64,000 nucleotides of DNA from the NCBI GenBank assembly GCA_030262725.1, contig JAJSZS010000001.1, forward strand, positions 1-64,000, in the 5' to 3' direction. Source of the stretch: Candidatus Desulfofervidus auxilii. GTDB taxonomy: Bacteria; Desulfobacterota; Desulfofervidia; Desulfofervidales; Desulfofervidaceae. The notes beneath the pieces were generated by a model. That model made no database searches, was not told the DNA's origin, and worked only from the letters and a program-made list of their open reading frames with translations. Shown in pieces: positions 32,595 through 42,038 of the stretch. The translations under genes and the position numbers were made by a program. Within the stretch, counting starts at the first letter, position 1. Every line of letters starts with the position of its first letter.

Positions 32595-32887
32595 AACAAA
32601 ATTTTATTACAGTTAGACTTTTTGATCGAGAATTAACTATAAAAACAGAAGAACCTCCAGAAAAGATTGAAAAAATAGTTAATTTTGTAAATGAATATTT
32701 AGAACATATTAAAAAACAAAAGCTTTTTAGGGATAGGGTATCTATTAATTTGTTAGCCCTTTTAAATATAGCACTTGAATATGAAGAAATGAAGGAAAAA
32801 TATCAAAATATAAACGGGAGAGTAGCTTATTTAGTAAGATTAATTGATAATTTTTTAGAAAAGGATACCTGCGGTGTGCGTGATTGA
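32591..32887 (+). CDS. zapA: Cell division protein ZapA
   Basis: A 98-aa protein with the ZapA pattern: VRLFDRELTIKTEEPPEKIEKIVNFVNEYL then SINLLALLNIALEYEEMKEKY and a C-terminal helix. ZapA crosslinks FtsZ filaments at midcell. Its last seven codons lie inside the 5' strand of the 6S RNA terminal helix, so the C-terminal residues CGVRD are dictated by RNA structure. Confidence 0.88.
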   Translation: MKQNFITVRLFDRELTIKTEEPPEKIEKIVNFVNEYLEHIKKQKLFRDRVSINLLALLNIALEYEEMKEKYQNINGRVAYLVRLIDNFLEKDTCGVRD

Positions 32888-33042
32888 GCAGATGATTTTG
32901 GGCCGACATCTTTTTTCTTGGGAACTCCCTCTGGTTCTGGATGGCATATTTGCCCTTTTTGGGCAAAGAGTCAGAAGGAACTATGGAGTGCCCACTTGTA
33001 TAAAAGAGGTTCAAAAGATTCTGCTAACACGGCACCGCGGGT
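32867..33042 (+). ncRNA. ssrS: 6S RNA
   Basis: A 176-nt segment folds into the 6S architecture. The ends pair (ACCTGCGGTGTGCGTG with CACGGCACCGCGGGT, 33028-33042). AGCAGA (32887-32892) and a TTTT run extend the helix against AAAAGATTCTGCT (33013-33025). A large central bubble follows, closed by GGGAACTCC (32920-32928) with GGAGTGCCC (32985-32993), and an apical hairpin TTTGCCC-TTTTT-GGGCAAA (32949-32967). The position directly after zapA is the classic site. 6S RNA binds the sigma70 holoenzyme and mimics an open promoter. Length and fold support the call; the exact ends are inferred. Confidence 0.87.
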
Positions 33043-33211
33043 TAATTTTTGTCCAAGTGGGGCAAAGGTAAATTGATATATAATAATCATTTATTAATAG
33101 GATTTAAAAAAGGCCCATAAGGGCTTGATATATAATTATTTCAAGATTTGTTTTCTTTTTTCCTTCCTTGGGTTTACTTTAAGCCCTACTTGGCGTTTTA
33201 GGGGTAAAAAA
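33043..33211 (+). other. Spacer between 6S RNA and rny
   Basis: 169 bases of AT-rich sequence. A short interrupted hairpin (AAGGCCC-ATAA-GGGCTT, 33110-33126) lacks a T tract. Two TATAAT-like boxes (33079 and 33131) have no good -35 at 17 bp. AGGGG lies before the rny ATG. I see no ORF or terminator I can support. Confidence 0.4.
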
Positions 33212-39721: not shown

Positions 39722-40456
39722 TTATCCTCCTTTAGTTTTTTCTACATACCAATCTATTTGGCGACAAATACCTCTTATAACCTTTATATCACTACTAGTT
39801 AAAGGAATTTTACTAAATATTCTTTTAAGCACTCGATAAGTATGTCCTTTCTCTCCACCTAAAACAAACCCTATTTTACTAAGAGAGTTTATTAGATGAG
39901 CATACATAGCTTCAACTTCTTTAGATGTAGCTAAGCGAGGTAATTTATAAGAAATTCCATTTCCTAAAGCATGACAGAAAAGTTCATAAAGGACAATTCC
40001 TACTGCCAGTGCTAAGTTTAAGGAAGGATGCTTAGAGGATGTAGGTATAGTAATAATAGCTTGACACAAGTCTAAATCAGTATTTTTAAGACCTGTTCTT
40101 TCAGGCCCAAAGACAAGAGCAATATCATTTTCCTGAGAAATAGCAGTTAAAAAAGGAGCAATTTCTCTAGGAGAAAACACAGTTCTTTTATATCTTACTC
40201 TAGCAGTTGTACCTACAACATAAGAAAAAGATGCTAAAGCTTCCTCTAAGGATGAATAGAGGATTGCTTTATAAAGAATATCCTTTGCATTAGTAGCCCT
40301 TGCTAAAGCCTCAGAACGAAGATAAAAAACCGGATTAACAAGAATTAATTTATCTATACCAAAATTTTTTAAAATTCTAGCTACACTACCAACATTTCCT
40401 GAAATAGCTGGATTTACTAAGATAACATGAAATTTAGATAATCGAAGAAAATACAT
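39722..40456 (-). CDS. trmJ: TrmJ-type tRNA/rRNA methyltransferase (SPOUT family)
   Basis: A 244-aa protein. VILVNPAISGNVGSVARILKNFGIDKL, LVFGPERTGLKNTDLDLCQ and IPTSSKHPSLNLALAVGIVLYEL are the three SPOUT knot motifs of the TrmJ group, which 2'-O-methylates position 32 of tRNA with SAM. The C-terminal extension of about 75 residues is typical of TrmJ. The ATG at 40456 overlaps the stop of the upstream 60-aa gene by one base (TGATG); the preceding TTG is rejected. Confidence 0.9.
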   Translation of the reverse strand: MYFLRLSKFHVILVNPAISGNVGSVARILKNFGIDKLILVNPVFYLRSEALARATNAKDILYKAILYSSLEEALASFSYVVGTTARVRYKRTVFSPREIAPFLTAISQENDIALVFGPERTGLKNTDLDLCQAIITIPTSSKHPSLNLALAVGIVLYELFCHALGNGISYKLPRLATSKEVEAMYAHLINSLSKIGFVLGGEKGHTYRVLKRIFSKIPLTSSDIKVIRGICRQIDWYVEKTKGG

Positions 40457-40638
40457 CAATCACTTTTTGAAGGTTTACTATCTTTTTTTTCCAAAACTTC
40501 CTTAATAGTATAGAAGATATCTTTAAAACATTGAGCAAATCCTGTTGGTGAGAGTCTTCCTATTTCTATAAATTTTATTACAATTTCTTTTGTTATTTTT
40601 AAAATTTTTTCTTCATCCTGAGTCATAAATTTCCCCAT
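40456..40638 (-). CDS. Small helical protein upstream of trmJ, function unknown
   Basis: A 60-aa protein (core ITKEIVIKFIEIGRLSPTGF, then FKDIFYTIKEVLEKK). I do not recognise a named family; the sequence looks like a compact all-helical domain. Two starts compete: ATG at 40638, 3 nt after a long RNA hairpin, and ATG at 40626, preceded by GGGGA. It overlaps trmJ by one base and heads the operon trmJ-receiver-dGTPase. Confidence 0.7.
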   Translation of the reverse strand: MGKFMTQDEEKILKITKEIVIKFIEIGRLSPTGFAQCFKDIFYTIKEVLEKKDSKPSKSD

Positions 40639-40724
40639 TTTGGCCTCTGCTGAAAAGAGCGGAAGAAGGCCGTTCTTAGTTTCAGCAGAGGCCGCGAAGA
40701 GATACCGTTTCCAGCACCCCTTCT
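40639..40724 (-). ncRNA. Structured 5' leader RNA of the 60-aa/trmJ operon (two perfect helices)
   Basis: Between the predicted transcription start (about 40724) and the ATG at 40638, the minus-strand RNA folds almost completely. Stem I pairs GAAGGGGTGCTG (40723-40712) with CGGTATCTCTTC (40707-40696), 12 bp including GU pairs, closed by a GAAA tetraloop. Two bases later stem II pairs GGCCTCTGCTGAAA (40693-40680) with TTTCAGCAGAGGCC (40655-40642), 14 bp without mismatch, topped by a 7-bp stem (40676-40670 with 40662-40656). The only SD-like AGAGG before the ATG at 40638 is buried in stem II. No match to a known riboswitch class is recognised. Confidence 0.7.
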
Positions 40725-40729
40725 AAAAA

Positions 40730-40758
40730 AACATATAAAGTAAAATAATATAAGTCAA
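40730..40758 (-). promoter_or_regulatory. Promoter for the structured leader and 60-aa/trmJ operon
   Basis: On the minus strand: TTGACT (40758-40753), 17-bp spacer, TATGTT (40735-40730). A start point 6-7 nt downstream would fall at the first base of stem I of the leader. Confidence 0.6.
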
Positions 40759-40804: not shown

Positions 40805-41227
40805 TTAAGCTGCTATTTTTCTTTTTATTTCTTGCATCTCATACTCTAACCGAGTAACACGTTCTTCAAGCCTTACATGCTCATCCCTTCTTACTATAAC
40901 CTCATAGAGTCTATCTAGTCTTTTATTGGTTTCATCAATCCTTTTATTTGTTTCATCAATTCTTTTATTCAACTCTTCTCTTACTGAGTCGATCCTTGCA
41001 TTTAATTCCTCTCTTACTGAATCAATCCTTTTATTTGTTTCATCAATTCGCCTGCTTTGATCTGCTAAGTGAATATTTACATCATCAAGCCTTTTATTTA
41101 TATCATCAAGCCGATTATTAATAAAGGCAAGATAATTTTTTATCTCCTTATTTTCCTCCTTAATCCTCCCCAATTCAGGCAAAATCAATTCCTTAAATGT
41201 ATTAGTGATAATCTCTTTTAACTCCAT
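40805..41227 (-). CDS. Coiled-coil protein with heptad and 11-residue repeats
   Basis: A 140-aa protein. After a helical N-terminus (LKEIITNTFKELILPELGRI) it is built of near-identical units: RLDDINK, RIDETNK (repeated) and two hendecads RIDSVREELNA and RIDSVREELNK, then a charged C-terminal helix. It should form a long parallel coiled coil; no catalytic motif is visible. Similar repeat proteins are frequent in thermophiles, without defined function. The ATG at 41227 has GGAG 6 nt upstream; the TTG at 41239 is rejected. Confidence 0.72.
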   Translation of the reverse strand: MELKEIITNTFKELILPELGRIKEENKEIKNYLAFINNRLDDINKRLDDVNIHLADQSRRIDETNKRIDSVREELNARIDSVREELNKRIDETNKRIDETNKRLDRLYEVIVRRDEHVRLEERVTRLEYEMQEIKRKIAA

Positions 41228-41314
41228 TTTTTTCTCCAAATTTCTCTTTCTAAAATATACTTAAAAGAAAGAAAAAAATCAACTGAAGGCTGCTTTATTT
41301 TTGTTATCAGAGGG

Positions 41315-41357: not shown

Positions 41358-41371
41358 ACAAAGGAGGAAAA

Positions 41372-41626
41372 ATGGCTCTTAGTATCAGGAATCCAAAGGC
41401 AGAGAGGTTAGCCAGGGAGGTTGCTGAAAGAACAGGGGAAAGCTTGACTCAGGCTATAATCCATGCCTTAGAAGAACGGCTTGAGAGAATTAAAGGTAGT
41501 AAACGAGCTAGCGATCTTTTTGAAGAGATAATGAGGATTTCTAAAAGGTGTAGTGCCCTTCCAGATTTTGATTCTCGTTCTCCTGAAGAGATCCTAGGCT
41601 ATAATGAAAAAGGTTTTTTGAAGTAA
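41372..41626 (+). CDS. vapB: VapB-type antitoxin (Rv0623-like)
   Basis: An 84-aa protein. MALSIRNPKAERLAREVAER is the N-terminal ribbon and helix of the Rv0623/PSK-type transcription factor family, followed by TGESLTQAIIHALEERLERI. The C-terminal part (LPDFDSRSPEEILGYNEKG) is the usual toxin-binding tail. AAAGGAGG precedes the ATG at 41372; the frame open from 41315 lies in the promoter. It is followed 1 bp later by the PIN toxin gene. Confidence 0.9.
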   Translation: MALSIRNPKAERLAREVAERTGESLTQAIIHALEERLERIKGSKRASDLFEEIMRISKRCSALPDFDSRSPEEILGYNEKGFLK

Positions 41627-41627
41627 A

Positions 41628-42038
41628 ATGGTAATTGATAGTTCAGCTTTGATAGCTATTCTTCTTGGAGAGCCAGAGGCAGAGGCTTTGGTAAGAGCGA
41701 TAGTTCGTGATCCCAAAAGGCTTATGAGTGCTTTTTCGGTTCTTGAGAGCGGAATCGTAATAGAAGCCAAGAAGGGAGAAGCAGGTAGTAGAGAGTTTGA
41801 GCTTCTCCTTCATCGGGCAAAGATAGAGATCGTGCCTTTTAATGCTGAGCAGTATGAAATTGCTCTCTCTGCTTGGAGAAAATATGGAAAAGGGCGGCAT
41901 CCTGCAGGGCTCAATATCGGGGATTGTTGTTCTTATGCCTTAGCCCGTTATTCAGGAGAGCCTCTTCTTTTTAAAGGTGATAATTTTGCAAAGACAGATA
42001 TTCCCAAGGTTAACTGGATGCAGGAAACCAGCAGCTAA
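41628..42038 (+). CDS. vapC: VapC-type PIN-domain ribonuclease toxin
   Basis: A 136-aa PIN domain. The four acidic positions are seen: VIDSSALIAIL (Asp3-4 region), SVLESGIVIEAK (Glu near 40), LNIGDCCSYALA (Asp near 99) and LFKGDNFAKTDI (Asp near 118). VapC toxins cleave tRNA or rRNA when released from VapB. All active-site residues are intact, so the toxin should be active. It is cotranscribed with the antitoxin. Confidence 0.92.
   Translation: MVIDSSALIAILLGEPEAEALVRAIVRDPKRLMSAFSVLESGIVIEAKKGEAGSREFELLLHRAKIEIVPFNAEQYEIALSAWRKYGKGRHPAGLNIGDCCSYALARYSGEPLLFKGDNFAKTDIPKVNWMQETSS

Follow-up and report, generated by a model that had tools for sequence, protein, structure and literature searches.

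What does a highly structured stretch of about 85 nt, lying between a promoter-like sequence and a small open reading frame (ORF) upstream of a trmJ-type gene, do for its host? The window, i.e. the whole stretch of DNA analysed here, comprises 64,000 nt of Candidatus Desulfofervidus auxilii (JAJSZS010000001.1, positions 1–64,000; family Desulfofervidaceae). A first-pass annotation of the window had proposed a cis-regulatory leader controlling a 60-aa protein, trmJ, a receiver protein and a dGTPase. We find instead that the RNA is a member of a conserved structured RNA family without an Rfam class, usually accompanied by a small-protein gene and found beside changing neighbours. The features of the locus are as follows.

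40730–40758, minus strand: sigma70-like promoter TTGACT-17-TATGTT, start point expected at ~40724
40640–40724, minus strand: conserved RNA (P1 and P2), sole genome-wide match of covariance model R2
40696–40723, minus strand: P1 hairpin, 12 bp with a GAAA loop and several conserved G–U pairs, read and folded
40642–40693, minus strand: P2 hairpin, 14-bp helix, terminator-like in relatives, the window copy without a U-tract
40661–40671, minus strand: loop motif GGCCUUCUUCC, pyrimidine-rich and near-invariant in homologues
40632–40636, minus strand: Shine–Dalgarno (SD)-like GGGGA for the conserved start (predicted from homologues), outside P2
40456–40626, minus strand: small protein of an unnamed family, 56 aa from ATG 40626, from a homologue search in the phylum
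39722–40459, minus strand: TrmJ-type RNA methyltransferase (TIGR00050, above cut-off), a local neighbour outside the conserved unit

A two-hairpin RNA in the window

Both hairpins of this RNA (minus strand, within 40725–40639) were evident from direct reading of the sequence. P1 pairs positions 40723–40712 with 40707–40696 around a GAAA loop (40711–40708), and after a linker of 2 nt the strands of P2 (40693–40680 and 40655–40642) form a perfect 14-bp helix whose 24-nt loop contains a small inner hairpin. Folding confirmed the two helices that the first-pass annotation had described, with a minimum free energy of −48.5 kcal/mol versus −27.4 ± 3.5 for shuffled sequences (z = −5.95) and none of 200 shuffles as stable. 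The noted GC-richness of the leader also held, at 53% compared with 30% upstream and 25% downstream. The hairpin sequence is single copy in the 2.27 Mb genome, hence a dispersed repeat or mobile element, a concern raised at the outset, was rejected. Just upstream of the promoter lies a 144-aa coiled-coil ORF with repeated RIDETNKRID-like units (40805–41239, minus strand), followed by an ORF pair (41360–42038, plus strand) that by sequence reading resembles a VapBC pair, with an antitoxin of 103 aa and a PIN-domain toxin of 136 aa.

Covariation and conservation of the RNA

The window RNA could be placed in a family through its relatives, as the same two hairpins occur upstream of small-protein homologues in the phylum. 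In a covariance model of P2 only (R1, built from 12 sequences), 11 of the 15 pairs were supported by compensation; it had matches in 62 of 394 phylum genomes, a few of which were bare terminator stems matched by chance (L072, L085). In a full-length alignment (A6) of 22 sequences, none from the window’s family, 93.1% of cells were paired and double-change cells numbered 76 versus 23.6 in shuffles. The P1 and P2 structure used for this count was assigned by eye on the sequence alignment, but RNAalifold, run without a given structure, predicted the same two helices unprompted (13 of 23 pairs compensated). Compensatory changes, which the first-pass annotation expected of a regulatory RNA, were abundant in both helices. 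The model built from A6 (R2) is blind to the window’s family and scored the window RNA at 48.3 bits (E = 2.8e-6), its only match in that genome; across the phylum R2 found one location per genome in 95 of 394 genomes.

Two parts of the RNA were conserved beyond pairing. Two neighbouring G–U pairs in P1 were kept in 21/22 and 22/22 sequences of A6, and the terminal loop of P2 across relatives was a near-invariant GGCCUUCUUC in the DNA upstream of small-protein homologues, with the loop statistics anchored on the CTTC motif and the CTTC positions hence conserved by construction. Pairing between the 5′ strand of P1 and the loop of P2 was unsupported: 87% of cells can pair in this register, the best of seven, but there is no covariation, owing to the invariance of the loop.

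That the RNA is an ordinary terminator, a dispersed repeat or a chance hairpin is very improbable on this evidence. P2 does look like a terminator stem, and it was similar bare stems that gave R1 its few chance matches, but compensatory changes in two hairpins, a conserved loop, a single copy and the promoter position all argue against such an origin. A chance hairpin and a repeat are refuted by the single copy, the fold z-score, the covariation and the sole R2 match.

The small protein and its translation start

The 60-aa ORF beginning at ATG 40638 had no Pfam or NCBIfam match, and clear relatives were found within the phylum. These homologues begin at MTxDEEK, for which the window equivalent is ATG 40626, and ATG 40638 is probably not the true start. 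It had been suggested that the only SD-like sequence (AGAGG) sits in the 3′ strand of P2 before ATG 40638. The conserved start at 40626 has its own SD, GGGGA (40636–40632), outside the hairpin; P2 therefore need not hide the ribosome site, and gating of the SD by P2 was rejected. With only ~15 nt between the RNA and the conserved ORF start, the window copy is necessarily part of the small gene’s 5′ leader.

The small protein was predicted as two helices (pLDDT 90.6), a structure search with it returned no informative match and no nucleic-acid-binding fold was recognised in it. A resemblance to ROS_MUCR, seen in 4 of 55 members (best E = 0.03), was too weak to keep. The same assembly also contains a second, divergent small-protein gene without the RNA, on a contig of 3.2 kb (G000:C69 2333–2461, L026). 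It is most like the copy in genome G033 and possibly marks a stray contig.

Genes neighbouring the RNA

In most copies a small gene (50–70 aa) lies 3′ of the RNA on the same strand, with a median of 78 nt (range 13–573) between P2 and the small-gene profile match. One of the neighbour counts was sampled upstream of the small gene and is hence biased, whereas the R2 set is unbiased; in 14 of 39 further R2 loci the small gene was not behind the RNA. The next gene in those loci was mostly pyrE (two identified by NCBIfam, the rest by closely similar N-termini), and one further copy precedes an SMR transporter. Altogether pyrE or other genes stand behind the RNA in about a dozen genomes, which carry the small gene elsewhere; a single genome (G221) had an RNA found and no small gene found. 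The neighbours being the small gene, pyrE and others, the RNA does not have the surroundings of a ribosomal-protein leader.

The trmJ gene was found behind the small gene only in the window’s family (tblastn and reading of the next ORF). In other families the ORF after the small gene resembles mpl or rph, as judged by sequence and not by HMM. Because the neighbours change, control of the trmJ operon was rejected as a general function, and with it the proposal that regulation of trmJ, the receiver protein and the dGTPase is what has been conserved. As far as sequence comparison goes, the conserved unit is the RNA, usually with the small gene, and trmJ and the genes for the receiver and the dGTPase belong to the local setting.

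Promoter-like sites and U-tracts

The TTGACT-17-TATGTT promoter that had been read in the window is present, and such a motif alone is no better than chance (3 found versus 2.9 expected), but the site is kept in family relatives, with TTGAC...TATAA at the same place in L003, L004, L005 and L007. Over 96 non-redundant leaders the best sigma70-like site ended ≤20 nt from P1 in 72, with a mean score of 8.0 versus 6.4 in shuffled sequences. Downstream of P2 a U-tract (≥5 T in 8 nt) was present in 79% of copies compared with 16% of random places. Both statistics are simple scores with mononucleotide shuffles or random places as controls, and the start of P1 is approximate. The RNA thus appears, on these predicted sites, to have the promoter of its own that is expected of a trans-acting small RNA.

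The window copy has GGCCAAAATGGGG instead of the U-tract, and no intrinsic terminator, which would need a U-tract after its GC-rich hairpin, was found there; five relatives from the family or order keep all or part of the tract. In 20 of 108 copies the next ORF begins ≤30 nt after P2, too close for another promoter to fit, hence these genes must be read through the RNA.

A tRNA-Ala(GGC) gene precedes P1 by a few tens of nt at several loci (L015, L032, L042, L055, L068, L070, L086 and others). The CCA end found upstream was considered as tmRNA and rejected, since ARAGORN identified tRNA-Ala(GGC). In several families the RNA behind this tRNA may be cut out of the tRNA transcript.

A candidate small RNA with read-through into the next gene

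The explanation that we rank best, and to which we give about an even chance, is a small RNA with its own promoter, a terminator in P2 and read-through into the next gene. Transcription would start at P1, and in most relatives P2 would end it incompletely, as an intrinsic terminator, so that a small RNA of two hairpins is set free. Its function would reside in the exposed loop (U)UGGCCUUCUUC, most probably through seed pairing with purine-rich sites in mRNAs and independently of Hfq, and where P2 is read through, the gene behind would be transcribed. The window copy, which has no U-tract, is the 5′ leader of the operon of the small-protein gene and trmJ, and any release of it would depend on processing. 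Base pairing and its targets are what we infer, since a simple target search was negative: in five family genomes exact matches to the 10-base complement of the loop were not concentrated at gene starts.

A purely cis-acting leader or attenuator, in which a ligand or protein at P1 or the P2 loop sets the level of transcription or translation that continues into the gene behind (the small gene, or pyrE in other genomes), is a possible reading that we take seriously while holding it to be somewhat improbable. That the small gene adjoins the RNA in most copies is explained more simply by a pure cis role; P2 with its U-tract resembles an attenuator, the window RNA is fused to the mRNA and in the 20 of 108 copies a second promoter would not fit ahead of the gene. 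Yet neighbours vary between clades at distances of up to 573 nt, Rfam gave no riboswitch or leader match, the loop is invariant and no conserved alternative pairing with covariation was found, and the SD of the window’s conserved start is free. The 5′ promoter, the frequent 3′ U-tract and the change of neighbours lead us to favour a small-RNA gene over a purely cis sensor. The structure is kept beside the small gene, pyrE, the SMR transporter and others, which counts for this reading, while the window copy without a U-tract and the 20 of 108 copies that must also be leaders count against it. Hence, of the leader claim made for this locus, the position ahead of the small gene, as part of its 5′ leader, stands for the window, whereas the changing neighbours, promoter and U-tract favour a small-RNA gene.

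Distribution, Hfq and the role of the small protein

Among the matches listed in a GTDB pattern scan, carriers were Desulfocapsa, Desulforhopalus, Desulfurivibrio, Desulfopila, Desulfofustis, Desulfosediminicola, Syntrophaceae and Ca. Desulfofervidaceae. Those listed from other phyla had no small gene and unconvincing R2 scores, and the only two strong R2 matches in that pattern set were both additional Desulfobacterota contigs. The RNA family is so far known only from one clade of Desulfobacterota, comprising sulfate reducers and relatives.

Hfq (PF17209) had no match in the Ca. Desulfofervidus auxilii genome, which does not fit an Hfq-dependent small RNA, and in the sample of 394 phylum genomes none of the 92 with Hfq carried the RNA. 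An rpoB tree of 29 genomes placed all sampled small-protein carriers in one clade (support 98), with Hfq only outside it. Hfq and the small protein fall on opposite sides of this deep division of the phylum, and both together occur in 0 of 394 genomes. The small protein was considered as an Hfq replacement, as the 92 genomes with Hfq and the 145 with the small protein do not overlap (Fisher 2.6e-22), and this was rejected as phylogenetic; the rpoB tree shows one deep split, so the exclusion is not independent evidence.

The small protein is encoded in 98 of 99 RNA-bearing genomes, even where the two are unlinked. This, together with the near-invariant loop and the P1 G–U pairs kept in nearly all A6 sequences, is consistent with a protein-binding RNA, in which a regulator, possibly the small two-helix protein itself, binds the G–U-rich P1 or the loop for autoregulation or as a sponge. 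We consider this unlikely, because the joint occurrence of RNA and protein tracks a single clade and cannot count as independent support, in 47 genomes the protein was found and the RNA was not, and the protein has no recognised nucleic-acid-binding fold. More speculative still, and in our view a long shot, is that the RNA and the two-helix protein work as a regulatory pair dedicated to each other, in a large clade where Hfq was not found; if true, the small protein would be a new kind of RNA-binding partner, for the two-hairpin RNA or for small RNAs generally.

The retention of a single-copy RNA with compensatory changes in ~100 sampled genomes indicates that its function is strongly selected, and its hosts play a central part in the anaerobic cycling of sulfur and carbon. 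Cultured carrier species, among them Desulfopila aestuarii DSM 18488, Desulforhopalus vacuolatus DSM 9700 and Desulfofustis glycolicus DSM 9705, make its job, and how it would work without Hfq, testable. The RNA also offers a way into the study of the small protein, which has no name and is conserved in this clade as well.

Comparison with known RNAs

The first-pass annotation recognised no known riboswitch class, in agreement with our searches. Rfam 15, run on the window and 20 homologue loci, yielded only 6S and tRNA matches and no family above the gathering threshold at the RNA, and a permissive scan gave only chance-level miRNA and lncRNA matches. The single Rfam match in the window was a 6S RNA (32863–33047, plus strand, 88.9 bits). 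Among the papers searched, none was found to describe the two-hairpin RNA; a non-coding RNA prediction study reportedly exists for Oleidesulfovibrio alaskensis. Desulfotalea-1, a candidate structured RNA named after a Desulfobacterota genus, is entered in the motif table of Weinberg et al. (2010, PMC2864571) with its role unassigned, listed for Proteobacteria, not called cis-regulatory and without an Rfam accession. By that table entry alone, our RNA could be the same motif (PMC2864571).

With trans-acting bacterial small RNAs that have a terminator and a pyrimidine-rich loop, the RNA shares a promoter-like site, two hairpins, a single copy, an exposed CU-rich conserved loop and, in most relatives, the U-tract. 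It differs from typical members in that no Hfq was found in the host and in that the window copy is fused to an mRNA and lacks the U-tract. The E. coli pyrE attenuator is a GC-rich hairpin and U-tract before pyrE, and one set of genomes here has a hairpin and U-tract in the same position; unlike that attenuator, the RNA has a conserved hairpin pair and loop and also precedes unrelated genes, including in the window. Finally, E. coli rrA, rrB and rrF are described in PMC8144298 as small RNAs behind ribosomal RNA operons. A small RNA from a stable-RNA transcript is likewise suspected here behind tRNA-Ala(GGC) in some families, but compared with that description (PMC8144298) our RNA mostly has its own promoter-like site and precedes protein genes, and the likeness meant here is one of arrangement.
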